Source: Roseovarius sp. (GTDB taxonomy: Bacteria; Pseudomonadota; Alphaproteobacteria; Rhodobacterales; Rhodobacteraceae). From it: a stretch of 64,000 nt of DNA. Location of the stretch: positions 186,001 to 250,000 of the forward strand of contig NZ_JAUCYU010000006.1 in assembly GCF_030373445.1 (NCBI RefSeq), read 5' to 3'. The notes beneath the pieces are model-generated. The model searched no databases. It had not been told where the DNA came from and saw nothing but the letters and a program-made list of their open reading frames with translations. Position 1 is the first letter of the stretch. Each line of letters begins with the position of its first letter. A program made the position numbers and the translations under genes. This document shows, piece after piece, positions 2,611 through 29,459 of this stretch.

Positions 2611-3531
2611 TCACTCCGGATTTCCCCCACCCCGCCGCAACCGCCGCTCGCGGAAGACGATCATCAATCCCCCGCCGACGATCAGAAGCGCCCCCGGCAT
2701 CAGCGTGTCGAATGGCGCCTCGTCGAAGAACAGCCAGCCAAAGACAAAGGCGATGGGAATCCCGAAATAGCTGAACGGCGCAAGGTTGCTGGGCTCGGTC
2801 ATCCGGAACGAGATCACCAGGCACAGCACCGCCGAGCCCCCGAACAGGCCCATCAGAAGGATCATCCCCGCATCCTGCCAGCTCGCCAGCGGGGTGAACC
2901 CGCCCAGGACAAAGGCCAGCGCCACCGACCCCACCGCCGCCGCGCCCGAGGAATAGAGGTTGAAGAGCGGCGTCGGCACACCTTCGTCGACCAGCCGCGC
3001 ACTCACCCCGGTATAGGCGTAAAGCGCCGAGGCCCCGAAAGGCAGCAGCATGACCCAGGCGAAATCCACCGTCCCCGGCCGCATGATCAGCACCACGCCC
3101 ACGAACCCGATCGCCACCGCTACCCAGCGGATCACCCCCACCCGCTCGCCCAGCAGCGGCACCGCCAGCGCGGTGGTGAAAAGCGCGGTCGTGTAGGAAA
3201 TCGTCGTCGCCGTGGCAAAGGCCATCAGCCCCAACGACAAATAGAACAGAAGCTGCGCCAGCGTCACCGCCAGCCCGCGGGCCACGGCCAGCCGCCACTG
3301 CCGCATGCGAAGGCTCCGGTCGCCGCGCCGCCACGCCGCCGTCATCCACAGCGCCACGGCGCTCGGCACCAGCCCGAAGAGATTGCGATAGGCCGACAGC
3401 TCCGCCGCCGCATAGCGCACCGACATCGCCTTGATGATCAGGGCCATGAAGTCGAACAGAACCAGCGCCACGATGCTGATCAGAATGCCCAGAACGGCAT
3501 TGTCGGTCCTGCCCGTCATCCCGGCCCTCAC
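2611..3531 (-). CDS. DMT-superfamily (EamA) membrane transporter
   Basis: The 306 residues contain about ten membrane helices arranged as two EamA repeats (about 17-150 and 160-295), the standard DMT exporter architecture. The second repeat ends in the typical [18 protein letters not shown] segment with a basic tail. Proteins of this family move metabolites such as amino acids, nucleosides or S-adenosylmethionine, and the substrate cannot be predicted from sequence. ATG at 3531 gives [10 protein letters not shown]; the internal ATG at 3519 is an equally plausible start. The gene stands alone between repeat element A and a palindrome cluster. Confidence 0.85.
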
Positions 3532-3630
3532 ACACGCTACCCGGGGTCAGGAAGCACGTTTGGCGGGGATAGTCGAGACTTGGCGATAACCAGATCGACT
3601 TCACCCACCCGAGGACGTCAGCGGGAACCC

Positions 3631-3813
3631 GGAATTTGCGCAAATTCCGGGATAGAGAATGCGCATTCTCTATTCTCGTTTTCCACGCGGAAAACGCAAA
3701 GGCGTCCGCCTCGGGACACACACATCCCTGACACACGGGACCCAAACGGAATTTTGCAGAATTCCGTCCCGGAAAATTCCAATTTTCCGACCCGTTTTCT
3801 TTTCAAGAAAACG
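3631..3813. repeat. Cluster of palindromes between the DMT gene and tRNA-Leu
   Basis: This fills most of the 3532-3863 gap, in which I see no gene. In order: an 18-bp perfect palindrome (3631-3648, GGAATTTGC and its complement), a 22-bp perfect palindrome (3652-3673, ATAGAGAATGC and complement), a hairpin with stem CGTTTTCC (3677-3696), a hairpin with stem CGGAATT (3747-3766), then GGAAAATT-CC-AATTTTCC (3771-3788) and CGTTTTCTT-TTC-AAGAAAACG (3793-3813). The last two have the same layout as the paired palindromes at 15896, 24718, 41925 and 46626. Confidence 0.85.
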
Positions 3814-3863
3814 CCTAACTCGCGCCGAAAGCGCGTCAAGCATCCTCGATGTCAGGGAGTATC

Positions 3864-3950
3864 TGGTGCGGTCGAGAAGACTCGAACTTCCACGGGTGTT
3901 ACCCCACAGCGACCTCAACGCTGCGCGTCTACCAATTCCGCCACGACCGC
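3864..3950 (-). tRNA. tRNA-Leu (anticodon GAG)
   Basis: The minus strand reads as an 87-nt tRNA including an encoded CCA end (3864-3866). The acceptor stem GCGGTCG pairs with CGACCGC. The D-arm has GGTAGAC, the anticodon stem CAGCG/CGCTG encloses the loop TTGAGGT (anticodon GAG), and a long variable arm typical of leucine tRNAs precedes the T-arm GTTCGAGTC. It decodes CUC/CUU leucine codons. Confidence 0.96.
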
Positions 3951-4164
3951 ACGTGATCAGGTAGGTGGGCGGCGTATACGCAATTGCCGGGGCGTTGTGA
4001 AGAGGAAAATTCCGCCTTTTTCACGCCCCCCGGACTCGAAGACGCGGCACGGGGTTTCCCCCATGCCGCGCATCGCCTGTGCCCTCCGCGGGACCGCTGG
4101 CTCGGGCCCCGCGGCGCACAGGCTACAGCCGGGTTACACAGGAGCGCCCTCCCGGCTGCGATCG

Positions 4165-5778
4165 TTATTCCGACAGCGTGAACACCGGCATCGACGAGCC
4201 CGTGCTCGACGCCGGCACCGGCATCGCCACGTCGCCGCCCGCCAGCCCCAGCGCCGCCTTGCGCAGCACCTCGACCCGGTCGGCCTGGCTCGGCGCAAAG
4301 ACCGGGGCCGCCCCGCCATCCAGCGCCGAGATCGCCACCTCGTACCATGCCAGCGCCATGTCGGCATTGTCATCCGTGCCGAACCCGCCATGCAGGTGGT
4401 GGCCCACCAGCTCGGCATAGGGCCGCTCGCCCAGCGCGGTCAGCAGCAGCGCCCCGCCCAGCGCGGCGGCCATCTTGTCCGACTGGTAGCCGCTCGCCAT
4501 GCAGATCTGCGCCGTGGTCCGAAGCTGCTCGGGCGTCATGCCGCTCTCCAGCACCAGCCCGCTCACATCGTTCAGCACCGCCTTGGGCGGCTTCGAGCCG
4601 AGCGCGCCGACATGCACGGCCATGCTCTGCCCGAAGGCGTCGCATTGCTGCTCGATCGCCGCCTGGCTCGCCCCCTGGACCGAGGCCATCATGTCCTCGC
4701 CCCTTGCCACGGCATAGGTCCGCGTCAGGCAAAGCTGTTCGTTCAGCGCGAAATCCGGGTTGCTGACATCGGCCACCGTGGTGAACCCGCCATTTGCGCT
4801 GGTCAGCAGGTTGACCTTGCTGCAATGGCTCGACAGCGATTTCTGCTTCGGCGCCGTGTTGAACACCGGCAGGGTCAGCCCGGCGGTGGCGCCGGTCTCG
4901 GGCTCCTCGGCCTTGGCCATCATCGTGTTGGCCTCGGGCTGCGCCGCGGGCGCCGCCTTCACCTGGCAGGTGCCGCCGATACAGTCGAAGCTCGCCGGCG
5001 TCGGCGAATGCAGCAGCAGGTCGTTCCGCCGGTACCCGTCCGAGGTCGAGGCAAAGACCATGGTCTTGCACTGCGAGGCGTTGCACCAGAAGCTGCTGCC
5101 GGCCAGCGCGGTGTCGATGATGTAATCCGTGCTGCCGTCGCCGTTGAGGTCGGCCAGCTGGATGAAGCCCGAGCGCTGCAGAAGCTGCTCGGCCGACGGG
5201 TCGGAACTGTCCGCCACCTCGTCCACCGCCTCCGACACCGCCATCGGCAGCCCGGCATAGCCGGTGGTGCGCGTGCCGGTCGTCCCGTCACGCTGGGCGA
5301 TCAGCAACGCCCGCGCGCCCTCGTTCGACTTGGCGATGATCTGGTTGACCTCGGCGCCGCCGGCCAGCGCCCGGTGATAGGCGCCCAGCAGCATGGTCTT
5401 CTCGTATTCCGAAAGCTGCCCGGTCGCCGGGTATCCCATGTACCCCTGGTAGCGCGAGATCGCCGCCCGCGACTGCCCGCCCAGAACCCCGTCCGCCGCG
5501 CCGGCATTGAAGCCGAAATAGTTCAGCGAGGTCTGGATTTCCCGTGCCTCCTGCCGCTGCGCCGAGGTGGCGCGCGGCTGGACATAGACGGTGCGCGTCC
5601 GCGTGGAGCGCGTCTGCGCCTTCTGGCGCTGCTGGTTGGCGATGCCGCTGCCGATCGCCCCGCCGATCAGCCCGCCGACAAGCCCGCCCACGAACTCGTC
5701 ACCGGCATGGGCGCGCCCGACGGGCACCATCAGCATGGCGGTCATCACCGCCGCACCCGTGATCCTCTTGAAAGCCAT
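4165..5778 (-). CDS. Secreted protein with glycine-zipper and peptidoglycan-binding domain
   Basis: The 537 residues begin with a Sec signal peptide (1-25, cleavage after GRAHA). A glycine-zipper stretch (about 30-48, [15 protein letters not shown]) is followed by a peptidoglycan_binding_1-like repeat (about 76-130, with [16 protein letters not shown] and a following R-A-I-S-R-Y-Q segment). The rest is a Cys-containing region (paired cysteines around WCNASQCK and DCIGGTCQ) of unknown fold with a stretch resembling an EF-hand/VCBS-like loop ([11 protein letters not shown]). It is probably periplasmic or outer-membrane-associated and bound to peptidoglycan. I do not recognise a specific function. 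It is a single gene; the start ATG follows AT-rich sequence. Confidence 0.75.
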
Positions 5779-5955
5779 TGCAATTATCCCCCTAGGTTCG
5801 AAAATTCCTTGATGCCGGCCATGCTAGCACGGGGTTTCGCGAATCCGTCACGCTTTTTTGCGCGCCAATTTGCACTTTCGGCTCAATGCGATACTCCATT
5901 CCCCAGGGGCAAAAGCCGGCGAATCGCCGGCCACAGCAAAGGGGCTGGCCACGCC

Positions 5956-6618
5956 ATGGTGAACTGGATCACCTCCCCCGGCCTGACCGGATATGACGAC
6001 GCCTGCCGCGAGATGGAGGCGCGCGCCGCCGCCATCGCCGAGGGCCGCGCCGACGAGGCGGTCTGGCTGGTCGAGCATCCGCCGCTCTACACCGCCGGCC
6101 CCTCGGCCAACCCCGCCGACCTGCGCGCGCCCGACCGGTTCCCGGTCCACCAGACCCGCCGGGGCGGGCAATACACCTATCACGGGCCGGGCCAGCGCGT
6201 GGTCTACGTCATGCTGAACGTGGGCCGCCGCGGCCGCGACCTGCGCCGCTTCGTCGAACAGCTCGAAACCTGGGTGATCGCCACGCTCGACCAGTTCAAC
6301 GTGAAGGGCGAAATCCGCCCCGGCCGGGTCGGCGTCTGGGTGGTGCGCGACGACAGGCCGCTCACCGCCACAGGCGCGAAACCCGAAGACAAGATCGCCG
6401 CCATCGGCATCAAGATGCACCGGTGGGTCAGCTTCCACGGCATCTCGATCAACGTCGAACCCGATCTCGAGCATTTCTCCGGCATCGTCCCCTGCGGCAT
6501 CGCCGAGCATGGCGTCACCTCGCTGGTCGATCTCGGCCTGCCGGTGGAAATGGGCGATGTCGACACGGCGCTGAAAAAGACCTTCCCCGCGATCTTCCCG
6601 GCCCGCGCCCCGGCATGA
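5956..6618 (+). CDS. lipB: Octanoyl-[acyl carrier protein]:protein octanoyltransferase LipB
   Basis: LipB moves the octanoyl group from ACP onto lipoyl domains of 2-oxoacid dehydrogenases and GcvH, the first step of de novo lipoylation. The 220 residues show the LipB signature [12 protein letters not shown] (about 69-80), the catalytic lysine region DKIAAIGIK (Lys146), FHGISINV, and the catalytic cysteine in SGIVPCGI (Cys180). The frame stays open far upstream, but homology begins at MVNWI, so I start at 5956; the upstream frame is a shadow across the tRNA and the preceding gene. lipA is not in this window. Confidence 0.95.
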
Positions 6619-6656
6619 GCCCGGCTTGAACACGGTTCCCTGCCGGACGTTTGCCC

Positions 6657-6693
6657 CGCCGGGCAGCGCCCGACCGCGGGTGGGCGCACCAAC
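6657..6693. repeat. 37-bp exact repeat (copy 1)
   Basis: This sequence, starting CGCCGGGCAGCGCCCGACCG and ending GGGCGCACCAAC, is identical to 57211-57247 after ptsP. Its first part, GCCGGGC-AGC-GCCCGAC, can fold on itself. Here it lies between lipB and the minus-strand gene's terminator. No inverted partner is seen nearby, unlike at the 57-kb locus. Confidence 0.8.
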
Positions 6694-6737
6694 ATCCGGG
6701 ATGCTTGCGCGGCCGAGCCCCGCAAATCCCGGCCCAC

Positions 6738-6780
6738 AAAAAAAAACCGACCCTTCCGCACTGTTGTGCGAAAGGGCCGG
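6738..6780 (-). terminator. rho-independent terminator for the HdeA-like gene
   Basis: Read on the minus strand, GGCCCTTTCGCAC pairs with TGCGGAAGGGTCGG and is followed by nine Ts. Confidence 0.85.
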
Positions 6781-6810
6781 CAACCTTGAAAAGCAACGGA
6801 TCCCCGGGCG

Positions 6811-7191
6811 TCAGCCGCCCTTCTCTTGGGGATCCATCATGGGATACGCCTCGGTGACGTCCATCGCGGGCGAACCCGAGCAGGCCTCGACGACCTGGAC
6901 ATACACGTCCGGCGCACCGGTGGCCTCTTCGCGGGCCTCTTCACGGCCGCCATCGGTGCTGTCGTCTTCCTTGACGGACACACCCTCGGCGGACGCATCT
7001 GCGCCCATGTCGCCGCGCGCCATCTCGCGCGCTTCCATGCGACCGGCATCGATGCCCATGACCCAGCCGCGCTGGCCGTCTTCGCTCATCGCGGAGAATT
7101 CCTCGCAGGTCATGGCGTTGGCGGGAAGGCCGACAAGCAGCGCGACCGTGGCAGCGGCGCCGGCCTTGGTAACTGTGTTCCAATGTTTCAT
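6811..7191 (-). CDS. Small periplasmic protein, HdeA/HdeB-like
   Basis: The 126 residues have a clear signal peptide (about 1-26, ending LPANA). The mature protein starts MTCEEFSAMSE, and a second cysteine falls in VEACSGSPAMDV near residue 107. The pair TCEEF...EAC and the size resemble HdeA/HdeB acid-stress chaperones, where the two cysteines form a disulfide. An acidic, low-complexity stretch rich in Glu/Asp/Ala (about 62-92) sits between them, which classical HdeA lacks. A role as an acid-stress chaperone is inference only. It is monocistronic with a strong terminator and a good upstream purine-rich ribosome site (GAGAGGAG). Confidence 0.65.
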   Translation of the reverse strand: MKHWNTVTKAGAAATVALLVGLPANAMTCEEFSAMSEDGQRGWVMGIDAGRMEAREMARGDMGADASAEGVSVKEDDSTDGGREEAREEATGAPDVYVQVVEACSGSPAMDVTEAYPMMDPQEKGG

Positions 7192-7397
7192 GAATAACTC
7201 CTCTCAAGTCTCTAACTGGTGAAGCGTCAACGTCACCCGGGTGTCTTTGTTCCGTCCGGTAGCAGGTGACCTGTGCCGTTTCCGCCTGAAAACAAACGAA
7301 AACCGCCCCGCGCCCGCCTCGTCTCACCGCTTCGTGTCCGCCGCACAAATCGGCGTGATCACAGGGAACCGCCCGGCCGGGGGTGCGACAATATTCA

Positions 7398-7411
7398 TTG
7401 ATCCATGTCAA
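7398..7411. promoter_or_regulatory. FnrL/FNR-type binding site upstream of ctaD
   Basis: TTGATCCATGTCAA matches the FNR/FnrL consensus TTGAT-N4-ATCAA at 9 of 10 conserved positions. It is centred about 113 bp before the ctaD start, in a 326-bp gap (7192-7517) that also holds the divergent promoter of the HdeA-like gene and no visible open gene. In Rhodobacter species FnrL controls respiratory oxidase genes according to oxygen; whether this site represses or activates ctaD cannot be read from its position. Confidence 0.6.
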
Positions 7412-7517
7412 ACTCATGCATTGCCCCTGTGACCGATGCATTCTAAAACCTGCACCAATTGCCGGTGCGTGACTCGACCGGTGACGCGCCACAGTAAGAT
7501 GCAGCAGGAGGCAGCCA

Positions 7518-9191
7518 ATGGCAGATGCGGCCATTCACGGCGACGGCCATGAAGACAACCGCGGGTTCTTCACCCGCTGGTTCATGTCCACCAACCACAA
7601 GGATATCGGTATCCTCTACCTGATCACCTCGGCCATCGTCGGGCTGATCTCGGTCATGTTCACCGTCTACATGCGGATGGAACTGATGGAGCCGGGCGTT
7701 CAGTACATGTGCCTCGAAGGCGCGCGCTTCATCGCGGCGGCGGCGGGCGAATGTACCCCGAACGGCCACCTCTGGAACGTGATGATCACCTATCACGGCG
7801 TCCTGATGATGTTCTTCGTGGTGATCCCGGCCCTCTTCGGCGGCTTCGGCAACTTCTTCATGCCGCTGCAGATCGGCGCGCCCGACATGGCGTTCCCGCG
7901 GATGAACAACCTGTCGTTCTGGCTCTACGTCGCCGGTACCTCGCTGGGCGTGGCCTCGCTGCTCTCTCCGGGCGGCAACGGCCAGTTGGGCTCTGGCGTG
8001 GGCTGGGTGCTCTACCCGCCGCTCTCGTCAAGCGAGGCCGGCATGTCGATGGACCTCGCGATCTTCGCGGTCCACGTCTCGGGCGCCTCGTCGATCCTCG
8101 GCGCGATCAACATGATCACCACCTTCCTGAACATGCGCGCGCCCGGCATGACGCTCTTCAAGGTGCCGCTCTTTTCGTGGTCGATCTTCGTCACGGCATG
8201 GCTCATCCTGCTGTCGCTGCCGGTCCTGGCGGGCGCCATCACCATGCTGCTGACCGACCGGAACTTCGGCACGACCTTCTTCGATCCGGCCGGTGGCGGT
8301 GACCCGATCCTCTACCAGCACATCCTGTGGTTCTTCGGCCACCCGGAAGTGTACATCATCATCCTGCCCGGCTTCGGCATCATCTCCCACGTGATCGCGA
8401 CCTTCTCGCGCAAACCGATCTTCGGCTACCTCCCGATGGTCTGGGCGCTGATCGCCATCGGCCTTCTCGGCTTCGTCGTGTGGGCGCACCACATGTACAC
8501 CGTGGGCATGTCGCTGACCCAGCAGAGCTACTTCATGCTGGCCACGATGGTCATCGCCGTGCCGACAGGGGTGAAGGTCTTCTCGTGGATCGCCACGATG
8601 TGGGGCGGATCGATCGAGTTCAAGACGCCGATGCTCTGGGCGTTCGGCTTCCTGTTCCTCTTCACCGTGGGCGGCGTGACCGGCATCGTCCTGTCGCAGG
8701 CCGGCATCGACCGCGCCTACCACGACACCTACTACGTGGTCGCGCACTTCCACTACGTGATGTCGCTGGGCGCCGTCTTCGCCATCTTCGCCGGGATCTA
8801 CTTCTACTTCGGCAAGATGACCGGGCGCCAATACCCGGAATGGGCGGGCAAGCTGCACTTCTGGGCGATGTTCCTCGGTGCGAACCTGACCTTCTTCCCG
8901 CAGCACTTCCTGGGCCGTCAGGGCATGCCGCGCCGCTATATCGACTACCCCGAGGCCTTCGCGGTCTGGAACTGGTGGTCCTCGCTCGGCGCGTTCATCT
9001 CCTTCGCCTCGTTCATCTTCTTCTTCGGCATCGTGTTCTACTCGCTGTTCCGGGGCGCCAAGGTGACCCAGAACAACTACTGGAACGAATACGCCGACAC
9101 GCTGGAATGGACGGTGGCCTCGCCCCCGCCCGAGCACACGTTCGAAATCCTCCCCAAGCAGGAGGAATGGGACAAGGGCCACGCCCACTAG
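7518..9191 (+). CDS. ctaD: Cytochrome c oxidase subunit I (aa3 type)
   Basis: This is the catalytic subunit of the proton-pumping aa3 terminal oxidase: it carries heme a and the heme a3/CuB site and reduces O2 to water at the inner membrane. The 557 residues contain about twelve helices. [13 protein letters not shown] near 275 includes the CuB His and the cross-linked Tyr; [12 protein letters not shown] holds the two further CuB histidines; [10 protein letters not shown] near 408 carries heme ligands. The C-terminal part beyond residue 520 is hydrophilic. The gene stands alone with its own terminator, which is usual in Rhodobacterales, where ctaCBGE are elsewhere. A GGAGG sequence ends 6 bp before the ATG. 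Confidence 0.97.
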
Positions 9192-9215
9192 GCGCCCGAC
9201 CCGCTCGACAGAAAG

Positions 9216-9246
9216 AAAGGCCCCGGCATCGCGCCGGGGCCTTTTT
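9216..9246 (+). terminator. rho-independent terminator of ctaD
   Basis: AAAGGCCCCGGC pairs perfectly with GCCGGGGCCTTT across a 5-nt loop, followed by TT. Confidence 0.92.
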
Positions 9247-9380
9247 GCTACAGCCTACGGACGAAAGCCTGCGTGCGGAGCTTCATCCGGGGCCAAACGC
9301 CGTCGTCATCCCCGATCCTCCCCACCATTGACCCGCCGGGCAGGTGCCAGGCAGCCCAGGGGAACGCACCCCCCGGGCGT

Positions 9381-10163
9381 TTACCCCAGCTCCCCGTGAT
9401 ACCAGTCATAGATCGTGACCTCGGTCTCGGCCCCGGCCTCCTCCAGCATCTTGGCAAAGGCCTCCGGGTCCTGCGTGCCGCCGTCGCGCCCGCGGTAATG
9501 GTAGGGGATCACCATCGCCGGCGCGAACGCGGCCACGGCATCCGCCGCCTGCTCCGCGGTCATGGTAAACGGCAGGTTCATGCAGACCAGCGCCAGGTCG
9601 ATATCCTCCAGCGCCCGCATCTCCTCCGTCCCCTCGGTGTCGCCCGAGATATACACGCGCGAGCCGTCCAGCGTCAGCACGAAGCCGATATCGCCCCGGT
9701 CCTGCGGGTGGAACTCCATCCGCCCCTCGGTGATGTTGTAGGCCGGCACCGCCTCGATCCCGACGCCCGCCATCTCGGTGCTGTCGCCCGCGGCGATCAC
9801 GTGGGCCCGCGCCTGCATGTCCTCGGGCATCATCGCGGTCACGTCCTCGTTGGTCAGGATCGGCGCCTTGGGCAGAACCCCCAGCAGGTCGGCGCTGAAA
9901 TGGTCGCCATGCCGGTGCGTGACAAGAATGAGGTCCGGCTCGGGCAGGTCCTCGTAGGCTGCATCCTCTCCAACGGGATCGACGTAGATCACCCCCGACG
10001 GCGTTTCCATCACGAAGGAGGCGTGCGAGATCGGATGGATGGTCAGCTTGCCGTCCATGAAGTTCAGGCTCGTCCCGTCCTCGGCGGCAAGCGCGAGCGA
10101 CGGCAGAACCGTGACCGTTCCGGCAGCGGCGCTGCCGATGAGGAAATTGCGTCTGGTCGTCAT
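9381..10163 (-). CDS. Tat-exported metallo-beta-lactamase-fold hydrolase
   Basis: The 260-residue protein starts MTTRRNFLIGSAAAG, a twin-arginine signal (about 1-28), so the folded protein should be exported to the periplasm. The mature part is a small MBL-fold domain with THRHGDH near residue 80 (metal ligands), ISGDTEG near 165 and YHYRGRDG near 225, as in the UlaG/UPF0173-like group. The substrate is unknown. ATG at 10163 was chosen because GGAGG lies 7 nt upstream and the Tat motif starts there, although the frame extends further. A distant paralogue without a signal lies at 28709-29401. No operon partner is seen. Confidence 0.85.
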   Translation of the reverse strand: MTTRRNFLIGSAAAGTVTVLPSLALAAEDGTSLNFMDGKLTIHPISHASFVMETPSGVIYVDPVGEDAAYEDLPEPDLILVTHRHGDHFSADLLGVLPKAPILTNEDVTAMMPEDMQARAHVIAAGDSTEMAGVGIEAVPAYNITEGRMEFHPQDRGDIGFVLTLDGSRVYISGDTEGTEEMRALEDIDLALVCMNLPFTMTAEQAADAVAAFAPAMVIPYHYRGRDGGTQDPEAFAKMLEEAGAETEVTIYDWYHGELG

Positions 10164-10343
10164 GTAGAACCTCCGGGTGTGTTGCGTGGCGTTGTCAGAC
10201 GTAGACGTCTCTAGGACTGTCTGCAGCATAGCATAGTGTGATCGGCCCGTGTGGCGAGGTGTGGATTGGCGGGACGGGCTCGCGCTTCACCGCCACCCGC
10301 AACGACACAGGTCGTGCACCGCGCGGCCGCCAACGTTGCGAAG

Positions 10344-10506
10344 CCGCGCATCGGCGGGCCGTGGTACGGCGATCCGACCTTGGTGATGGGCAATTTATGC
10401 CTGCCAAGCACATCCAACCCGCGCGCGTGCCACTCCACCCGCGAAATCGCCGTGCCGTCCGGGCGGCCCGTCGATGCGCGGCGGGCTGAAGCCCTTTGTT
10501 CCGCGC
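10344..10506. repeat. Intergenic inverted-repeat element, copy B
   Basis: It has terminal repeats CCGCGCATCGGCGGGCC (10344-10360) and GGCCCGTCGATGCGCGG (10465-10481), 16 of 17 paired, and a 138-bp core. The shared flank with GGGCTGAAGCCC and TTCCGCGC runs to 10506. It has the same orientation as copy A. Together with the 83-bp block at 10643 it fills much of the gene-free 10164-10826 interval; I see no other structure there. Confidence 0.82.
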
Positions 10507-10642
10507 AGACGGCCCAACAAACGCCTCGCCCACCCGCAGTCGGCCGCCGCCCGGCACCACTTCTCCCCCGTTGCGCCCAACACAACATCTCGCCTGTTGC
10601 GCCCGGAACGCCACATCAACCAACCGCTCCACAGCCCCGGAA

Positions 10643-10725
10643 ACCGACGCGATACCGACGGAATACCGACGTGATACCGACGTCACGATCCCTTCAAAAC
10701 AACGCCGTTAACCTTCGAATCGCCG
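10643..10725. repeat. 83-bp conserved block with four 11-bp units (copy 1)
   Basis: This block is identical base for base to 53495-53577. Read on the minus strand it holds GTCGGTATCAC, GTCGGTATTCC, GTCGGTATCGC and a partial fourth GTCGGT unit, spaced 11 bp. On that strand GTTAACG and ATCGTGAC precede the array. It ends 101 bp before the folB start. A diverged copy of the array lies at 24650. Confidence 0.85.
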
Positions 10726-10826
10726 CCCCCTGCCGTCTCCGCGCCCCGCCCCGTCGCATTCGCCCCTCCCCATCCGCCGCCCCCCATGCTATCTCCCGCC
10801 CCAACGACCCTGCCAGAGGACACCCC

Positions 10827-11756
10827 ATGTCCAACGAGATCCGCCTCGCCTTCGCCCACCCCTCGGCCCGCGCCGACGCCACCGCCCCCGACGGCCCGCT
10901 CGACCGCATTTCCGTCCGCGATCACGTGGTCGAGGTGGAAATCGGCGCCTTCCAGGCCGAGCGCGGCACCACCCAGCGCGTCGCCTTCAACGTCGTGGTC
11001 GAGGTGCGCCCCCTCACCGACCCGATCGACGACGATGTCGACCGCATCCTCAGCTACGACAAGGTGACCGAGGCGATCCATGCAGCGCTCGCCGAAGAAC
11101 GCCTGAACCTCCTTGAAACGCTGGCCGAGCGCATCGCCGAACGCATCCTGTGGGAGCCGCAGGCGGTACGCACCTTCGTCCGCATCGAGAAGCTCGACCG
11201 CGGGCCGGGCGCTCTCGGCGTCGAGATCGTCCGCTCCGTCTCGGACCTCAAGACCAAGCCCGTCACGCCTCACCACGCCACGGCCCCGCACCCGCACGTG
11301 GTCTACCTCACCAACGCCGCCATCCGCTCGCCCAACCTCGCCCGCTGGCTCGACCAGTTGCAGGCCCGGGCCGAGCCGGTGATCCTCTGCGTCGGCCATG
11401 CCGACACGCCCGCCCCGCAGACCGGCCACAAGATGACCCAGCGCCGCGTCGACCTGCTGGCCCTGGAACAGAACGCCTGGGTGCTCGCGGGGCGTGATGA
11501 CCGCTGCGTCGTCGTGGGCAGCCGGACCGAGCTCGACTGGGCCATGAAGAACGGCCAGATCAGCGTCTGGGCCCCCTCGAAGATCGTGCTCGACGCCGTC
11601 GACGGCCCCACCACCGGCCCCGACGACCCGGTCGCGCTCGCCTCGTGGTTCGCCGGCCATATCGACGCCTCCGACCTGCTGCTCATCGGCGAAACACCCC
11701 CTGCCGACCCGCCCGTCCCCGTGCTTGTCCAGGACATCGCCCAGTCGGGCCTGTAA
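10827..11756 (+). CDS. folB: Dihydroneopterin aldolase FolB with extra C-terminal domain
   Basis: FolB splits 7,8-dihydroneopterin into 6-hydroxymethyl-dihydropterin and glycolaldehyde in folate synthesis. Residues about 25-135 form the FolB domain: VEIGAFQAERGTTQRV, the ILSYDKV segment, LLETLAERIAERIL, and the conserved lysine in VRIEKLDR. The protein has 309 residues, about 2.5 times the usual 120; residues 140-309 are a second domain I do not recognise, with segments such as VVYLTNAAIRSPNLARWL and WVLAGRDDRCVVVGS. I chose ATG at 10827 (MSNEIRLAF), preceded by AGAGGA, though the frame is open upstream across the repeats. folP follows after 70 bp, making a folate pair. Confidence 0.88.
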   Translation: MSNEIRLAFAHPSARADATAPDGPLDRISVRDHVVEVEIGAFQAERGTTQRVAFNVVVEVRPLTDPIDDDVDRILSYDKVTEAIHAALAEERLNLLETLAERIAERILWEPQAVRTFVRIEKLDRGPGALGVEIVRSVSDLKTKPVTPHHATAPHPHVVYLTNAAIRSPNLARWLDQLQARAEPVILCVGHADTPAPQTGHKMTQRRVDLLALEQNAWVLAGRDDRCVVVGSRTELDWAMKNGQISVWAPSKIVLDAVDGPTTGPDDPVALASWFAGHIDASDLLLIGETPPADPPVPVLVQDIAQSGL

Positions 11757-11826
11757 GGGCCTCGCCCCGCAAAACGCCCCGTCCCGGCCCCCGAGCCGGG
11801 GCCTCTGACCCGACCCGTAGCCGCCC

Positions 11827-12837
11827 ATGACCTACTACCGCCCCATCCCCAGCACCGACCGCGCCCGCCCCACCGGCGCCTTCCCCCTTGCCGGCGGCTG
11901 GGCGTGGTTCGACACGGTCGAGGCCATGCACCGCGACGCCCCGTCCCGTCTCCTCCCCGCGGCCGACATCCCCGCTGACGCCCTTGAAAACCTGACCAAA
12001 CCCCGCGCCCCCATCACCGGTCTCAGCTTCGACGCACCGCGCCTCATGGGAATCCTCAACGTCACCCCCGACAGCTTCTCCGACGGCGGCGAGCACTTCT
12101 CCCCCGACGCCGCCCTCGCCCATGCCCGCGCCATGGCTGAACAGGGCGCCGACATCCTCGACATCGGCGGCGAATCCACCCGCCCCGGCTCGACCGAAGT
12201 CGATATCGAAGAGGAAATCCGCCGCACCGCCCCGGTGATCGGCGCCATAAGGGCCGAGATGGCCGTGCCCATCTCCATCGACACCCGCAAGGCCCCCGTC
12301 GCCCGCGCCGCCCATGAAGACGGCGCCGACCTCGTCAACGACGTGGCCGGCTTCACCTTCGACCCGGCCCTCGCCCCCTACTGCGCCGAGAACGGCCTGC
12401 CGGTCTGCGTCATGCACGCCCAGGGCACGCCCGATATCATGCAGAAGGACCCGCGCTACGACAACGTGGCGCTCGACGTCTACGACCACCTCGCCGCCCG
12501 CGTGACCGCGCTCGAAACCCTAGGCATCCCGCGTGAACGCATCATCGTCGACCCCGGCATCGGCTTCGGCAAGACGCTGGAACACAACCTGACGCTCCTG
12601 CAGAACCTCGCCCTCTTCCACGGGCTCGGCTGCGCCGTCCTCCTCGGCGCCTCGCGCAAGCGGTTCATCGGCACCATCGGCGGCTCGGATACCGCCCGCC
12701 ACCGCGCCCCCGGCTCCGTCGCCGTGGCGCTGGCGGGCGTGGCGCAGGGCGTCCAGCTCCTCCGCATCCACGACGTCCGCGAAACGACCGAGGCCCTCCG
12801 CCTCTGGCAGGCCGCCACCCTGGGCCGCCTGCCCTAG
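11827..12837 (+). CDS. folP: Dihydropteroate synthase
   Basis: This enzyme joins 6-hydroxymethyl-dihydropterin pyrophosphate and p-aminobenzoate to form dihydropteroate, and is the sulfonamide target. Of the 336 residues, the first 65 or so form an N-terminal extension. The TIM barrel then starts at LMGILNVTPDSFSDGG and continues with DILDIGGESTRPGS, the DLVNDVAGF segment and the late GASRKRFIG motif, all diagnostic. It is downstream of folB and probably co-transcribed. Its stop overlaps the stop region of the convergent DMT gene by 4 bp. Confidence 0.95.
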   Translation: MTYYRPIPSTDRARPTGAFPLAGGWAWFDTVEAMHRDAPSRLLPAADIPADALENLTKPRAPITGLSFDAPRLMGILNVTPDSFSDGGEHFSPDAALAHARAMAEQGADILDIGGESTRPGSTEVDIEEEIRRTAPVIGAIRAEMAVPISIDTRKAPVARAAHEDGADLVNDVAGFTFDPALAPYCAENGLPVCVMHAQGTPDIMQKDPRYDNVALDVYDHLAARVTALETLGIPRERIIVDPGIGFGKTLEHNLTLLQNLALFHGLGCAVLLGASRKRFIGTIGGSDTARHRAPGSVAVALAGVAQGVQLLRIHDVRETTEALRLWQAATLGRLP

Positions 12838-15895: not shown

Positions 15896-15940
15896 CGATT
15901 TCTTGAAAAGAAATCGCCCCGAAATCTTTTCAAGATTTCG
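15896..15940. repeat. Paired palindromes
   Basis: Two adjacent hairpins: CGATTTCTT-GAA-AAGAAATCG (15896-15916) and CGAAATCTT-TTC-AAGATTTCG (15920-15940). They lie 15 bp after the second Lrp gene and belong to the same family as those at 3771, 24718, 41925 and 46626. They may also act as a terminator, but no T run follows. Confidence 0.85.
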
Positions 15941-20810: not shown

Positions 20811-22703
20811 CCCGCGCGGCAACGCCCGCCGCAGGTGGCCGGCCCCCTGCGACAGCCCATGCTGCGTCTTGTCCCAGAAGAACGGTTTCAGCACCAGTTC
20901 ATAGAGCGCCTTGTACGCCGCCACCGCCCCCAGCGGACCATAGAAATGCATGGTCGGCGTCCACAGGATGAGGTGCTTGTGCCGCGCCCGCGCCACCGCC
21001 GTGGCATGAATCGTCAGGTTGACCACCTCGATCGTCAGGAAGAGCGACCCCAGCACCACCATCACCCAATGCGGCAGCACCGGGTCGAGCGGGTGCGGCA
21101 AGCCCAGCAGCACCAGCCAGAACGACCACAGGAAGGGGGCAAGGAACACCTGCGACAGCGCCGTCACGAAATGCGCCTGGAAGCCCAGGAAACGCCATGT
21201 TCCCAACTGCCGCAGCAACTCGCGCGGCCGCCGCATATGGACAAGGTAGGTGGTCATGTACCCTTTCAGCCATCGCGAACGCTGCTTGATCCACGGCCAT
21301 GGCAGGCAATTGGCCTCCTCCGCCGTCACGGTCGCCAGCATCTCCGTCCGGTAGCCGTGCCGCGCCAGCCGGAAGCCCAGGTCGGCATCCTCGGTCACGT
21401 TGTGCGAATCCCAGGCCCCCACCCGTTCCAGCGCCTCGCGGCGGCAGAACACCGTGGTGCCCCCAAGCGGGATCGCCAGCCCCATCCGCGCCATGCCCGG
21501 CAGGATCATCCGGAACCACGTGGCATATTCGATGGTGAAACACCGCGCCAGCCAGTTCTGGCGCGGGTTGTAATAGTCGAGGTAGCCCTGCACGCAGGCC
21601 ATCTCGGGCGGTGAGGCGCCGAACCTGCGCACCACCTGCATGATCTGATCCGGCGCCGGCGCATCCTCGGCGTCGTAGATGCCGATGATGTCGCCATCGC
21701 AGAAATCGAGCGCGTAATTCATCGCCCGCGGCTTCGTTCGCGGCGTGCCATCGGGCACTACCACGGCCCGGATCCACGGCGGCAGGTCGATCCCCGCCAG
21801 GGCCTCGCGCGTTTCGCCATCCTCCTCCTCCAGCACGAGGATCACGTCCAGCAGGCTTTTCGGATAGGTCAGCCGCGTCAGCCGCGCCACCAGCTCGTGC
21901 ACGATCTCGGTTTCCCGGAAAAGCGGCACCAGCACCGACACCCGCGGCAGCGGCAGCTTCCGCAGGGGCTGGGGTGCCGGGGGCTCCGGCGGTCCGACCA
22001 CCAGGCCGGTCACGAAGGCCGCCATCTTGAACAGGGCCGAAATGATCAGCGTGACCACCGCCCAGCCCGCCAGCACCCCGAAGACGAGCCGCGGCTGAAG
22101 CACCGTCACCAGCGCCAGAGCCAGCAACAGCAGCGCCACCGCCGTCAGCCGGACCTCCCGCCGCTGCCCCCATGTGCGGCAGCTTTCCTCTTCCGGCACG
22201 CGGGTCACCATCGCCTGTGTCAGCGCGGGGCGGTGCAGCTCCGCCAGCCGGCCCTGGATCACCGGCCGCGAGGAAAACAGAACCCGCGCCGGCTTGAGCG
22301 CCATCGGCAGGTGCGGCCGGATCGCATCGCTGCTGCGCCGGTCGCTGCAGACGATGGCAGCCTTCCCGTCGCGGTCGACCACCGGCAGCACCGCGTGCCG
22401 GATCAGGGTTTCGACCGGCGTATCGACGTGAAACTGCTTTAGCTGCGCCAGCTCCCCCTTCGACAGGCAGCGCGACTTGAACGCGCGCGCATTCGCCTCC
22501 AGCAACTCGGCCTCGCTGGCCAGCCCCTCGGCGCTCAGGATCCGGTCAAGCGTGGCGTCCGACCGCGCCCCGACCCAGCCCGCCCGCTCGAGGTCGTCAC
22601 GGCTGACGGTTCCCCTGGCCAGCAAATCCCTTTCCAGCGCCGACGGAGCTGTGCCGGCGGCGCGTTTTACCGGACCAAGGTGACGTAATTCCGAAATGCC
22701 CAT
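20784..22703 (-). CDS. Membrane glycosyltransferase family 2 with N-terminal MshEN/GspE-N-like region
   Basis: A protein of 639 residues. Residues about 20-100 contain two LxxxLLxxGxxxxxxL-type repeats (ERDLLARGTVSRDDLERA and LDRILSAEGLASEAELLEA), resembling the N-terminal domain of GspE/MshE. Two helices follow (about 185-230). A GT-A domain has VSVLVPLFRETEIV, the DxD-like IYDAEDAPAPDQ, TEDADLGFRL and QRSRWLKGYM (QxxRW), the signature of processive GT2 enzymes. C-terminal helices complete the membrane part. It probably polymerises or exports an exopolysaccharide; NfrB-type proteins combine the same modules. A CtrA-like box lies 45 bp upstream of the start. Confidence 0.85.
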   Translation of the reverse strand: MGISELRHLGPVKRAAGTAPSALERDLLARGTVSRDDLERAGWVGARSDATLDRILSAEGLASEAELLEANARAFKSRCLSKGELAQLKQFHVDTPVETLIRHAVLPVVDRDGKAAIVCSDRRSSDAIRPHLPMALKPARVLFSSRPVIQGRLAELHRPALTQAMVTRVPEEESCRTWGQRREVRLTAVALLLLALALVTVLQPRLVFGVLAGWAVVTLIISALFKMAAFVTGLVVGPPEPPAPQPLRKLPLPRVSVLVPLFRETEIVHELVARLTRLTYPKSLLDVILVLEEEDGETREALAGIDLPPWIRAVVVPDGTPRTKPRAMNYALDFCDGDIIGIYDAEDAPAPDQIMQVVRRFGASPPEMACVQGYLDYYNPRQNWLARCFTIEYATWFRMILPGMARMGLAIPLGGTTVFCRREALERVGAWDSHNVTEDADLGFRLARHGYRTEMLATVTAEEANCLPWPWIKQRSRWLKGYMTTYLVHMRRPRELLRQLGTWRFLGFQAHFVTALSQVFLAPFLWSFWLVLLGLPHPLDPVLPHWVMVVLGSLFLTIEVVNLTIHATAVARARHKHLILWTPTMHFYGPLGAVAAYKALYELVLKPFFWDKTQHGLSQGAGHLRRALPRGSDGAFDFP

Positions 22704-22747
22704 TTGCCGCTCCTCGCGGTCTCAAACGGACGCGAGGATGACCGGAC

Positions 22748-22766
22748 ATGGTTAAGGAAGCGTAAA
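22748..22766 (-). promoter_or_regulatory. CtrA-like binding site before the glycosyltransferase gene
   Basis: On the minus strand TTTA-CGCTTCC-TTAACCAT matches the CtrA consensus TTAA-N7-TTAACCAT with one mismatch. It is centred about 54 bp upstream of the ATG, a position suited to activation. Confidence 0.45.
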
Positions 22767-22796
22767 CAAAGGGTTAACGCCCAATAGGCGAAAAGG

Positions 22797-23945
22797 TTAA
22801 CGGTCCATCGACGCCGCGAAGCGCTCGAACAGGTAGAAGCTGTCCTGCGGGCCGGGGCTGGCCTCGGGGTGGTGCTGGACCGAGAAGACCGGGCGGCCAT
22901 CCAGCCGGATGCCGCAGTTCGAGCCGTCGAAGAGCGACACGTGCGTCTCCGTCACGCCCTTGGGCAGGGTCTGGCTGTCGACCGCGAAGCCGTGGTTCAT
23001 CGAGGTGATCTCGACCTTGCCGGTCTCCAGCTCCTGCACCGGGTGGTTGGCGCCGTGGTGGCCGTGGTTCATCTTGACCGTCTTCGCGCCCAGCGCCAGC
23101 CCCAGCATCTGGTGGCCGAGGCAGATGCCGAAGATCGGCAGCCCCTTGTCCATCACGCCCTGGATCATCGGCACGGCGTACTCCCCCGTCGCCGCCGGGT
23201 CGCCGGGGCCGTTCGACAGGAACACGCCGTCGGGGTTCTGTGCCAGCACGTCCTCGGCGGTGGAGGTGGCGGGCATCACCGTCACCTCGCAGCCGGCGCT
23301 GGCAAGACAGCGCAGGATGTTGCGCTTGGCGCCGTAATCCACCGCCACGACCTTGTGCCGCGCCTCTTTCTGGCGGCTATAGCCATCGGGCCAGGCCCAG
23401 CGCATCTCGTCCCAGCGGTAGGATTGCGCACAGCTCACCCGCTTGGCGAGGTCCATCCCCTCGAGCCCGGCAAACCCGCGGGCGTGGCTGATCAGCGCGC
23501 CAACATCGAAATTCCCGTCCGGGTCATGGGCCAGCGCCACGTGCGGCGCGCCCTGCTGCCGGATCGCCCGGGTCAGCCGGCGGGTGTCCACGCCGCCGAT
23601 CGCCACGCGGCCGCGCCGCGCCAGCCAGTCCGACAGCCGTTCGGCCGAGCGCCAGTTACTGGGCTCGGTCGGGTCCCATTTCACCACCATGCCCTCGGCC
23701 ACCGGGTCGGCGGTCTCGTCATCCTCGGGGTTCACGCCGACATTGCCGATATGGGGAAAGGTGAAGGTGACGACCTGCCCCGCATAGGAAGGGTCGGTCA
23801 TGATCTCCTGGTAGCCGGTCATGGCGGTGTTGAAGCAAAGCTCTGCCGTGACCTGCCCGGTCGCCCCGAACCCCTTGCCATAGAAGACGGACCCGTCGGC
23901 CAGGACAAGGCAGGCGGTCGGGCGCTTTTGGGGCGAGTGGGCCAT
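22797..23945 (-). CDS. carA: Carbamoyl-phosphate synthase small (glutaminase) subunit
   Basis: CarA hydrolyses glutamine and passes ammonia to CarB for carbamoyl phosphate, the precursor of pyrimidines and arginine. The 382 residues have the N-terminal CPSase small domain (GYQEIMTDPSYAGQ near 44-57) and a class I glutaminase domain: VVAVDYGAKRNILR, the nucleophile in GICLGHQMLGLA (about Cys275) and the HHPEASPGP His/Glu pair near the C-terminus. ATG at 23945 fits homology. carB is not in the window. It is divergent from yqeY across 197 bp. Confidence 0.96.
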   Translation of the reverse strand: MAHSPQKRPTACLVLADGSVFYGKGFGATGQVTAELCFNTAMTGYQEIMTDPSYAGQVVTFTFPHIGNVGVNPEDDETADPVAEGMVVKWDPTEPSNWRSAERLSDWLARRGRVAIGGVDTRRLTRAIRQQGAPHVALAHDPDGNFDVGALISHARGFAGLEGMDLAKRVSCAQSYRWDEMRWAWPDGYSRQKEARHKVVAVDYGAKRNILRCLASAGCEVTVMPATSTAEDVLAQNPDGVFLSNGPGDPAATGEYAVPMIQGVMDKGLPIFGICLGHQMLGLALGAKTVKMNHGHHGANHPVQELETGKVEITSMNHGFAVDSQTLPKGVTETHVSLFDGSNCGIRLDGRPVFSVQHHPEASPGPQDSFYLFERFAASMDR

Positions 23946-24142
23946 GGCGAAAGAATCTCCGGGGGTGCAAATTGGCCGGAAACTATGGTCGCGGCCCCCG
24001 AGGGTCAAGGGCACAACCGCGCTGTTGCACCGCTGCCATCTGCAGGCCCGCCCGGTATGCCGTGACGTCAGGCGCGGTTGCCACCCCTTGCGCTTTCCGA
24101 TAGGTTGACGGTCTTGCCAGCGGCCATGGGGAAAATACGTCG

Positions 24143-24601
24143 ATGGGATTGAGAGAGCAGGTCAACACTGCGCTGAAGCAGGCCATGAAAGAGAAGGACA
24201 GCGCGCGCCTCGCGACGCTGCGGCTGATCAACGCGGCCATCAAGGACCAGGACATCGCCCGGCGCGGCGCCGATGGCGACACCGACCTGACCGATGCCGA
24301 CATCATGGCCATTCTCGGCAAGATGACCAAGCAGCGCCAGGAAAGCGTCCGCGCCTACGAGGAGGGCGGCCGGCTCGACCTGGCCGAGCGCGAGCAGCGC
24401 GAGATCGAGATCATCGCCGAGTTCCTGCCCCGTGCGCTCGACGAGGCCGAGGTGGATGCCGCCATCGACAAGGCGATCAAGGACACCGGGGCCACCTCGA
24501 TCCGGGACATGGGCAAGATCATGGGCCGGCTGAAAGAGAAATACACCGGCCAGATGGATTTCGGCACGGTGGGTCCGAAGGTTAAGGAACGGCTGGCCTG
24601 A
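24143..24601 (+). CDS. GatB/YqeY domain protein
   Basis: This 152-residue protein matches YqeY along its whole length (LREQVNTALKQAMKEKDSARLATLRLINAAIKDQ at the start and the GKIMGRLKEKYTGQMD tail). The domain resembles the tRNA-binding tail of GatB, but as a stand-alone protein its role is not established. It lies divergent from carA, a common neighbourhood in Rhodobacterales. The start is preceded by a weak GGGGAAAA sequence. Confidence 0.88.
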   Translation: MGLREQVNTALKQAMKEKDSARLATLRLINAAIKDQDIARRGADGDTDLTDADIMAILGKMTKQRQESVRAYEEGGRLDLAEREQREIEIIAEFLPRALDEAEVDAAIDKAIKDTGATSIRDMGKIMGRLKEKYTGQMDFGTVGPKVKERLA

Positions 24602-24649
24602 CGGGAACCGGCCTTCGCCCGCGTTAACGAACTCGGCCGCAATCGCGAC

Positions 24650-24693
24650 GTCGGTATCGCGTCGGTATAACGTCGGTATTTCGTCGGTGTTTT
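24650..24693. repeat. Tandem 11-bp repeat array (diverged third copy)
   Basis: Four contiguous units on the plus strand: GTCGGTATCGC, GTCGGTATAAC, GTCGGTATTTC, GTCGGTGTTTT. ATCGCGAC lies directly before the array and GTTAACG about 25 bp upstream, matching the layout of the 83-bp blocks at 10643 and 53495, which are in the opposite orientation. Confidence 0.82.
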
Positions 24694-24717
24694 TTCCCGA
24701 GACGTGGCGGTTCGGGG

Positions 24718-24763
24718 CGATATCTTGAAAAGATATCGGGTCGAATTCTTTTCAAGAATTCGA
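24718..24763. repeat. Paired palindromes
   Basis: CGATATCTT-GAA-AAGATATCG (24718-24738) and TCGAATTCTT-TTC-AAGAATTCGA (24741-24763), the same family and spacing as at 15896. They lie between the 11-bp array and the convergent DUF2244 gene. Confidence 0.85.
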
Positions 24764-24809
24764 TGCGTTGTGGCCTCGGGCCCAGGTGCGGGGCGGGGCG
24801 GGGGTGAAT

Positions 24810-24826
24810 GGTGGGTTGCACCCACC
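24810..24826. terminator. Short hairpin directly after the DUF2244 stop
   Basis: GGTGGGT-TGC-ACCCACC forms a perfect 7-bp stem abutting the stop of the minus-strand gene. No T run follows on either strand, so it is a weak terminator candidate or an RNA-end hairpin. Confidence 0.4.
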
Positions 24827-25327
24827 CTACGATTTCACCGCCTGCCGCAGCGCATCGGACAGCTCGCCGTAGAGCGCCTTGCGCTCGTCCTCCGACAGGA
24901 AGGCCCCGATCTCGACCTCGCGGCCCTTGCCGCTCAGCGTCACGTAATACGGCACCGGCCCGCCCTTCTCGTGCATGGCGGCCCTGGCCCAGTAGCTCTG
25001 GCAGGCCCATTCCTGCGTTGCGCCGCGCGGGTCGGTGCGGGTCAGGCGAACCTCCTCGGAATCGATGGAAAGGTCCTCGTTCAGCCGGGCATCGCGATAG
25101 GACCGTTCCAGCCCCCACCAGAGCCCCGCCACCGCCAGCAACAGGAAGGGCAGAAGCCCCCACAGCACGATCGTGCCCAGAAGCGGATAAAGCGGGATGG
25201 TGATCAGCGTGAAGGTCGCGAGGATGAAGGCCGCGAATCCCCGCCGCGGCAATGACCGGTGCGGCCAGAGACGCAGGCGGCGCACGGTGCCGCCGGGATC
25301 TGTCGTTGCGCTCCACTCGTAAGGCAT
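24827..25327 (-). CDS. DUF2244 membrane protein
   Basis: The 166 residues have two membrane helices near the N-terminus (about 30-50 and 53-72, FAAFILATFTLITIPLYPLL and an LPFLLLAVAGLWWGL stretch), then a soluble domain with the WACQSYWARAAMHE segment typical of DUF2244. The function is unknown. It is the last gene of a likely cupin-dtd-DUF2244 operon (55 bp after dtd). Confidence 0.8.
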   Translation of the reverse strand: MPYEWSATTDPGGTVRRLRLWPHRSLPRRGFAAFILATFTLITIPLYPLLGTIVLWGLLPFLLLAVAGLWWGLERSYRDARLNEDLSIDSEEVRLTRTDPRGATQEWACQSYWARAAMHEKGGPVPYYVTLSGKGREVEIGAFLSEDERKALYGELSDALRQAVKS

Positions 25328-25382
25328 GACCCTATCCTAGCGTGGCCGACGGAAAGGGAAACCGCGCCGATGCGCGCGGGTC

Positions 25383-25820
25383 TCAGCTTTCCATCCAGAT
25401 CGTCACCGGCCCGTCATTGAGCAGCTCGACCTTCATGTCGGCGCCGAACCGGCCCGTCTCGACCGGCACGCCCTGCGCGGCCAGTTGCCCGGCGAAATAT
25501 TCGTAGAGGCGCTCCCCCTCCTCCGGCGGCGCGGCGGTGGAAAAGCCGGGGCGATTGCCGCGGCTGGTGTCGGCGGCCAGCGTGAACTGGCTGACGACCA
25601 GCGCGGCGCCGCCCATGTCGCGCACCGAGAGGTTCATCTTGCCGGCCGCGTCGGGAAAGATGCGGAGTTTCGCGACCTTGGCGGCCAGCTGGTCGGCCTG
25701 CGCCTCGGCGTCGCCCTGCATGGCGCAGACGAGGATCAGCAGGCCCGGACCGGTCTGACCGATCACCTCGCCCTCGACCGTGACCGAGGCATGGGCCACC
25801 CGTTGCAGCAATGCGCGCAT
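25383..25820 (-). CDS. dtd: D-aminoacyl-tRNA deacylase
   Basis: Dtd removes D-amino acids (and glycine from tRNA-Ala) mischarged on tRNA. The 145 residues match the family length: [15 protein letters not shown] start, the SQFTLAAD motif (about 77-84), the [16 protein letters not shown] segment, and the C-terminal [11 protein letters not shown] with the conserved Gly-Pro cis motif. ATG at 25820 was chosen on the conserved N-terminus; the frame is open further upstream. The cupin gene ends 13 bp upstream. Confidence 0.95.
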
Positions 25821-25833
25821 GTCCGGCCCCTTT

Positions 25834-26190
25834 TCAGATCCGCGGCTTCGGCGCCGGCTCGCGGTCGGCATCGCCGGAGTTGGGCTCGCCCTTCGGCTCG
25901 ATCAGCAGCACGCTGACCTCCTGCTCGGCGCGCGGGCGGTGGACCACGCCCTGCGGCACCACGATCATTTCCCCGGCGCGGAGGGTCTGGTTCGGGCGGT
26001 CCTCGAACTCCATCACCATCTCGCCCTCGAGCACGAGGAAGAAATCATCGGTCGTGTCGTGCTTGTGAAAGGGAAACTCCCCCTGGAATTTCACCACCAT
26101 GACGTCGTTGTCGTTGTAATCGGCCACGACATGCGGATCCCAGTGAGTGGTAAACCGCGCCAGTTTTTCCGCCAGGTTGATCGTGCCCAT
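25834..26190 (-). CDS. Single-domain cupin protein
   Basis: A cupin of 118 residues with motif 1 [20 protein letters not shown] (metal ligands His, His, Glu) and motif 2 [13 protein letters not shown] (His). The N-terminus is [23 protein letters not shown]. It probably binds a divalent metal; the substrate is unknown. It is first in the operon with dtd and DUF2244, and divergent from the GlxA-type gene across 97 bp. ATG at 26190 is where homology starts. Confidence 0.82.
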
Positions 26191-26287
26191 ACGTGCCCTC
26201 CGCCAACAGCCTGTTTCGCCCAGCCATGCCCAAGCCGCCCCGCCGGCGCAAGGAATTTTGCACATACGCGCGCCACGGTGCTAAGCC

Positions 26288-27316: not shown

Positions 27317-27317
27317 G

Positions 27318-28124: not shown

Positions 28125-28187
28125 GGAAGGCCGCTTAGCGCAAAAGCCGCGCTTGCGAAAGCGTCATGCGCGGGGCATGGAAGGGGG

Positions 28188-28637: not shown

Positions 28638-28668
28638 GCCCTTCGTATTCGAGTATTTTCGGAAAGAT

Positions 28669-28691
28669 GAAAGGGCGGGTGCCGCCCCTTC
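28669..28691 (-). terminator. rho-independent terminator of the UPF0173 gene
   Basis: On the minus strand GGGGCGG-CAC-CCGCCC is followed by TTTC, 18 bp after the stop. Confidence 0.65.
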
Positions 28692-28708
28692 TTCCTGTTC
28701 CGTGCAAC

Positions 28709-29401: not shown

Positions 29402-29459
29402 GATGTTCTCCCTATCTTTGGCAGGTAACGTAGTGGCTCCTGCGCGCGAGGAAACCCCG

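Follow-up and report, generated by a model that had tools for sequence, protein, structure and literature searches.

Arrays of an 11-bp direct repeat dispersed through Rhodobacteraceae genomes are accompanied by a polar local GC skew

Chi sites are short polar signals of 5-8 nt, present about once per few kb, that act over several kb as hotspots for RecBCD or AddAB, with single-stranded DNA on their 5' side and synthesis on their 3' side. The pho box and the operators of OmpR-PhoB regulators in general are built of 11-bp head-to-tail direct repeats. Bacterial GC skew is commonly interpreted as reflecting the replication fork and gene direction. In PMC3269016, Chi is given as an octamer in E. 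coli and KOPS as FtsK-orienting polar sequences; excerpts of PMC3532100 and PMC4679880 present the STAR elements of staphylococci and the TAACTGA repeats of Beggiatoaceae, respectively, as interspersed intergenic direct repeats.

The arrays analysed here were found in a 64-kb stretch of Roseovarius sp. DNA (the window, i.e. the whole stretch of 64,000 nucleotides) and share some traits with each of these systems. Their polar skew footprint from about -2 to +8 kb, a compositional proxy and not recombination, may correspond to the polar action of Chi, but they measure 39-44 bp and occur 93 times per 4.8 Mb (about one per 50 kb), whereas Chi is short and frequent. They are dispersed and oriented as KOPS are, yet they are long, agree weakly with the replication arms and carry a local skew footprint. 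They consist of 11-bp direct repeats like the OmpR/PhoB operators, but without promoter association. As with STAR and TAACTGA repeats, so far as the excerpts describe them, there are many intergenic direct-repeat copies, whereas the arrays have a nearly fixed unit number and a polar skew footprint. New here is that third-position skew is raised on the GTCGGTAT strand around the arrays. The array was not found described among the listed matches from the open-access literature (subscription journals and preprints lying outside this scope), for the topics covered, i.e. the motif, Roseobacter-group repeats, polar motifs and local skew around repeats; among the literature matches listed for either 8-mer, all were unrelated.

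The window holds three arrays, with the following features.

10643-10681, minus strand: array copy 1, near folB, made of three complete GTCGGTATNNC units with a partial fourth, GTCGGT.
10604-10725, minus strand: profile match covering copy 1 (model R1, 91.7 bits).
10682-10725, minus strand: leader of copy 1, 44 bp, carrying a GATTCG..GGTTAACG box.
10604-10642, minus strand: downstream flank of copy 1, carrying a GGTTGATGTGGCG box (limits from the model and alignments).
53495-53533, minus strand: array copy 2, near lysC, same sequence as copy 1.
53455-53577, minus strand: profile match covering copy 2 (model R1, 86.6 bits).
53534-53577, minus strand: leader of copy 2, 44 bp, identical to that of copy 1.
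53455-53494, minus strand: downstream flank of copy 2, carrying a GTGAATGTGGCG box (limits from the model and alignment).
24650-24693, plus strand: array copy 3, four units, located where yqeY and a DUF2244-like gene converge with their 3' ends (57.2 bits).

The segments 10643-10725 and 53495-53577 are identical at 83/83 bp, as the earlier note had stated, inside a looser match of 111 bp at 89%. On the minus strand, this block reads as the 44-bp leader, three full units and a partial fourth (GTCGGTATCAC GTCGGTATTCC GTCGGTATCGC GTCGGT). Its placement upstream of two genes also holds, copy 1 lying ~100 bp from the folB ATG (10828) and copy 2 70-80 bp from the lysC start (53648 or 53657, depending on start choice); folB, lysC, yqeY and DUF2244-like are probable names judged from sequence. 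The third copy indeed has four units of this type, on the opposite (plus) strand, but no gene-upstream position goes with it, as it sits between convergent 3' ends. Judged by coordinates, its counterparts in the sister species (genome G016) and in Pseudooceanicola spongiae lie at or within ~100 bp of the matching place, in the same relative orientation. A two-unit pattern with up to 3 mismatches gave 9 matches in the window versus a mean of 0.05 in 100 shuffles, none of which reached 9.

Two other kinds of repeat were seen in the window. A 160-nt repeat, in inverted copies at 82% identity (10328-10487 and 53260-53419), lies close to both identical blocks and is separate from the array element. 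Palindrome-rich repeats with TTTTCAAGA/TCTTGAAAA-like cores (15896-15940, 24713-24765, 46627-46680 and 41941-41978) seem to form a family of their own, terminator- or REP-like.

The repeat family is thus real, but it is not limited to the three copies first noticed: a sequence-model search, with 19 of 21 distinct elements aligned, retrieved 93 copies in the 4.8-Mb genome at E<1e-9, the next match being at 0.002. Two-unit matches with up to 2 mismatches numbered 119 + 102 in this genome, and the reversed pattern gave 0. Read in its own orientation, the consensus is GTCGGTATNNN three times, then a last unit GTCGGTG, for 39-44 bp in all. Four units are present in 80 of the 93 copies, five in 11 (the fifth being mostly loose) and three in 2. 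Unit columns carry 1.65-2.0 bits and spacer columns 0.45-1.2, except position 10 (1.85). An upstream leader box (GAATCRGGGTTAA or GATTCGNNGGTTAA, up to 2 changes, within 50 bp) accompanies 37/93 copies, a downstream GGTTAATGTGGCG box (up to 3 changes, within 60 bp) 38/93, and both together 31/93; the downstream box was met in 1/465 random 60-mers. Contig C7 has no half-decayed tail of arrays, since no window in it exceeds 20/30 unit matches away from its 17 arrays. The proposal that the 11-bp, roughly helix-phased units are under strong constraint is borne out by these near-invariant units, by the variability of most spacers and by the lack of half-decayed copies in C7; from their sequence, the units fit binding by a protein. 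A structured RNA element is not supported, as 0/10 predicted pairs had a kept two-sided change and Rfam gave no match around copy 1. No inverted ends were noticed by eye in the aligned elements, and k-mers enriched near arrays were mostly G-rich words, with no shared second motif recognised.

Using our own gene finder, inspected on the window, we placed 34 copies in convergent gaps, 39 in tandem gaps, 18 in divergent gaps and 2 inside coding sequence, within genes that we take to be transketolase-like and CHAT/TPR-like. Convergent gaps are over-used (34 of the 91 intergenic copies versus 21% of C7 intergenic bases, p=4e-4) and divergent gaps are not (18/91 versus 27%, p=0.16). The earlier note had read the arrays as operators of biosynthetic genes and named scatter without relation to gene starts as the finding that would speak against a regulatory array. 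Such scatter is what the copies show and, as they are not tied to gene starts, a set of promoter operators is not supported. The inert repeat that it offered instead is disfavoured as well, because a polar strand asymmetry is found locally with the arrays, both in many species and when orthologues are compared.

In both the own genome (G000) and the sister species, an array inside a divergent transketolase-like gene is read in frame, with no net gain of length relative to distant paralogues. That the array had been cleanly inserted into this gene was considered and dropped, the own protein being 2 residues shorter there than the paralogues; this test is weak because the paralogues are only 46-49% identical.

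Within the genus, 12/24 genomes (own included) had a match at up to 1 mismatch, compared with 0/16 genomes of other families. Among Rhodobacteraceae sampled at nearly one genome per genus, 23/394 (own included) had an exact two-unit match, in a patchy distribution. Exact three-unit matches were found in 2/385 genomes of an Alphaproteobacteria class sample, our own and one other of Rhodobacteraceae, and in 0/380 Alphaproteobacteria outside this family. A scan of named genomes gave at least 110 stretches with arrays; the names among the 80 listed were all Rhodobacteraceae-type, Rhodobacterales or Alphaproteobacteria, and the listed matches included Pseudooceanicola, Salinihabitans, Shimia, Roseovarius, Boseongicola and Silicimonas. 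Among 60 of 80 neighbour clusters, several arrays lie at the same gene neighbourhood across genera, some of them flipped relative to the gene. Over 12 hand-picked cross-genus pairs, ungapped identity was 82% in units, 38% in spacers and 27-28% in flanks, the unit value being an underestimate where the register slid and the loci having been pre-selected for perfect units. A blastn search of 72,556 plasmid records, which is insensitive to such short repeats, gave no element and one weak 34-base Sphingopyxis match.

On the array strand, the GC skew over 5.7 kb is positive at 89/93 own copies and the third-codon-position skew at 91/93, the latter leaning toward the array strand in genes of both directions. 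In other Rhodobacteraceae-type genomes, the local skew is positive in array orientation at 97 of 110 copies. Within about -2 to +8 kb of an array, G exceeds C at third positions of the GTCGGTAT strand for genes on either strand, and this excess is the footprint. At the 110 loci of other genomes, the mean of the two gene directions gives a third-position profile of 0.07-0.10 between -5 and -2 kb, 0.19-0.22 between -1 and 0 kb, 0.16-0.18 downstream to +4 kb and 0.12 at 4-5 kb; the upstream ramp has p=5e-8 for own copies and p=3e-5 for other species. Over 12 kb, downstream skew exceeds upstream skew at 1 of the 3 window arrays, 13/17 arrays of C7 and 11/12 of P. spongiae; within 2.8 kb, the two sides do not differ at the own copies. 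At fourfold sites of the array strand, C falls and G rises. Fourfold-site G+C near arrays is not above that of the flanks in C7 and only slightly so in P. spongiae (0.87-0.88 versus 0.84-0.88, the rise there being relative to the upstream flank), which gives little indication of GC-biased gene conversion.

Skew domains of tens of kb alternate along C7, and 17/17 arrays point with their domain. As this agreement alone could result from rearrangement, a local component was tested on the 17 arrays of C7 and on 12 arrays in 400 kb of P. spongiae. Centre (-2 to +8 kb) minus flanks, corrected for gene strand, was positive at 15/17 arrays of C7 (circular-shift p=0.0024) and at 12/12 of P. spongiae (circular-shift p=0.001). 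Genome G003 also has skew domains of tens of kb, with 0 array matches and, in 400 kb, no period-11 array except one coding-like match; rearrangement therefore explains part of the correlation seen in the own genome. The sign flips every few tens of kb, G003 included, suggest that both genomes are heavily rearranged or of unusual skew, as they seem to be.

Comparison of orthologues with and without a nearby array bears on the same question. Pairs were best matches within a stretch, taken without gene-by-gene synteny check and from few genomes, and an array was held testable with at least 2 near and 3 far pairs, which left 11 of the 40 arrays in the compared stretches. In nine of these 11, the skew is displaced in the direction of the array (mean over the 11, +0.195; p=0.0034 by Wilcoxon test), the two without effect being the folB array and that at 562.8 kb of P. 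spongiae. In a regression over 449 orthologue pairs, which share genomes and so are not independent, the slope was 0.157 versus a rotation null sd of 0.026, and 0/3000 rotations gave one as large. The yqeY and folB arrays of the window scored +0.25 and -0.04, respectively, and an array of G014 showed hardly any effect. The folB array, seen only in the own genome and the sister species among six genomes, may for this reason be young, a proposal made to rescue the case. The footprints expected in the window are as follows.

2681-12681, minus strand: expected footprint of copy 1, with strong total skew and no array-specific shift versus relatives (-0.04).
45533-55533, minus strand: expected footprint of copy 2, with total skew mostly -0.1 to -0.2 and too few orthologue pairs.
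22650-32650, plus strand: expected footprint of copy 3, with a third-position shift of about +0.25 versus four relatives, after subtraction of the rest-of-block difference and from only the 3 genes left of the ~25.3-kb synteny break.

This break, at about 25.35 kb of the window in 5/6 other genomes, is about 650 bp from the yqeY array.

Individual loci of P. spongiae were compared with G003. For the plus array at 427 kb, values in the three genes closest to it are +0.25 to +0.42 versus -0.02 to -0.14 in G003, and the next genes beyond show a smaller difference. The minus array at 542.5 kb lies in a plus region and has a reversed footprint, with -0.18 to +0.11 on its downstream side versus +0.11 to +0.21 in G003. 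No difference from G003 was found at 562.8 kb and at 593 kb, the latter comparison covering mostly the upstream side. G003 and G009 share the 540-560 kb segment in collinear order and a single orientation; given this collinearity and the orthologue contrast, large inversions were dropped as the whole explanation.

With replication origins placed by parS sites, array orientation agrees with the replication arm at 54/90 listed copies of P. spongiae and at 26/37 listed copies of G007 (chromosome length assumed), and it tracks the local skew far better than the arm. Strict replication polarity, our first reading, was dropped after this weak concordance. Polar fork arrest, which depends on fork direction, was rejected because the footprint is reversed at the minus array that lies in a plus region. 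From a bidirectional origin one would expect a change of sign in the skew, which instead is the same on both sides, and a promoter leaves the 5' skew ramp unexplained. A replication terminator of Ter/Tus type was set aside as well, the listed copies being spread across the whole P. spongiae chromosome and not over its terminus half.

Several other explanations have to be weighed. The near-invariant units, 11 bp long, head-to-tail and with 8 conserved positions as in a pho box, would suit a family of operators through which an OmpR/PhoB-type regulator controls neighbouring genes, but the preference for convergent over divergent gaps and the two genic copies speak against it, and it leaves a 10-kb polar skew independent of gene strand unexplained; we regard it as unlikely. 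We think it similarly improbable that the arrays are a non-functional mobile repeat, inserted in a preferred orientation relative to local strand asymmetry, with skew as cause rather than consequence. Dispersal in about 90 copies, the recent origin of an identical pair and a patchy presence in the genus would be expected of such a repeat, whereas orthologous genes in array-free genomes mostly lack the local skew, C7 holds no half-decayed copies, units are conserved when most spacers are not and, in a number of cases, the same gene neighbourhoods are occupied across genera.

A directional effect on downstream DNA would also arise if arrays started long transcription or R-loops, running several kb in their own direction, with transcription-linked damage producing the skew, the non-template strand then losing C. 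Since the skew already starts to ramp up ~2 kb before the array and the downstream gene is opposed in 55/91 cases, we give this explanation only a slim chance. A site of chromosome organisation or segregation, i.e. a KOPS- or parS-like loader or guide of a translocase, would agree with the regular density, the use of both strands, the conserved places and the plasmid records without the element, as far as that insensitive search reaches. The low agreement with replication arms, at the listed copies of P. spongiae and of G007 under its assumed length, argues against it, and we know of no mutational footprint of KOPS- or parS-like sites; it appears very unlikely to us.

A Chi-like site fits best, owing to the ~2-kb 5' ramp that peaks at the array and the several-kb 3' plateau of the same sign, in either orientation. 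We tentatively favour, at somewhat less than an even chance and from sequence comparison, the reading of the arrays as putative protein-binding sites starting a polar DNA transaction, most likely Chi-like recombination or restart, the Chi-like step itself being what we infer. A dedicated candidate protein would bind the array as head-to-tail subunits, and the array would start or polarise a one-directional transaction. An end-resecting enzyme may arrive from the 3' side and leave a 3' single strand ending at the array, from which re-synthesis would run downstream; halting of this enzyme by the array-bound protein is one possible way among others. Ectopic gene conversion between arrays could then generate identical 83-bp blocks.

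The sister species bears on this last point. Its DNA identity with the own genome is 91% in folB and 95% in lysC, and it carries arrays at both genes, that at lysC having three units; each differs from its counterpart in the own genome. The outer flanks at the own lysC are orthologous to those of the sister species, and the 83-bp core is that of the own folB. Since both loci of this relative carry an array and neither array matches its counterpart, the folB/lysC identity has the appearance of recent ectopic copying, for which gene conversion would be the simplest route; of the two explanations first given for the perfect identity, recent copying thus gains from a gene-conversion-like tract at lysC. 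Array sequences, as compared here, seem to be exchanged among copies. Within about 1.5 kb of the folB and lysC loci, no array was found in G021, G003, G014 and P. spongiae.

More broadly, it is possible, though we would sooner doubt it, that Rhodobacteraceae possess a previously undescribed class of long-range polar elements, in the form of multi-unit putative protein-binding arrays about every 50 kb. Such arrays would direct one-way recombination-coupled synthesis through ~10 kb and so set a local mutational strand asymmetry, independently of replication arm and gene direction; base composition integrates over long times, and sequence comparison cannot separate mutation from selection in such an asymmetry. 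They would point to a protein and a DNA transaction common to a major family of marine bacteria. A short, mappable site, naturally present or absent and linked to the sign of the local skew, would offer a handle on the origin of strand asymmetry, and origin or terminus calls based on GC skew can mislead in these genomes.

Arrays were also found in 6 viral contigs. One of them (IMGVR_UViG_2740892180_000006, 7972-7999) has its array just before portal- and protease-like genes that resemble a gene-transfer-agent cluster, whence the idea of arrays as packaging sites of such agents; the GTA-like portal had no match among array-neighbour genes or in the searched part of the own genome. In P. spongiae, many arrays have a species-specific form, in which the later units read AACGGT, as if the copies had shifted together.
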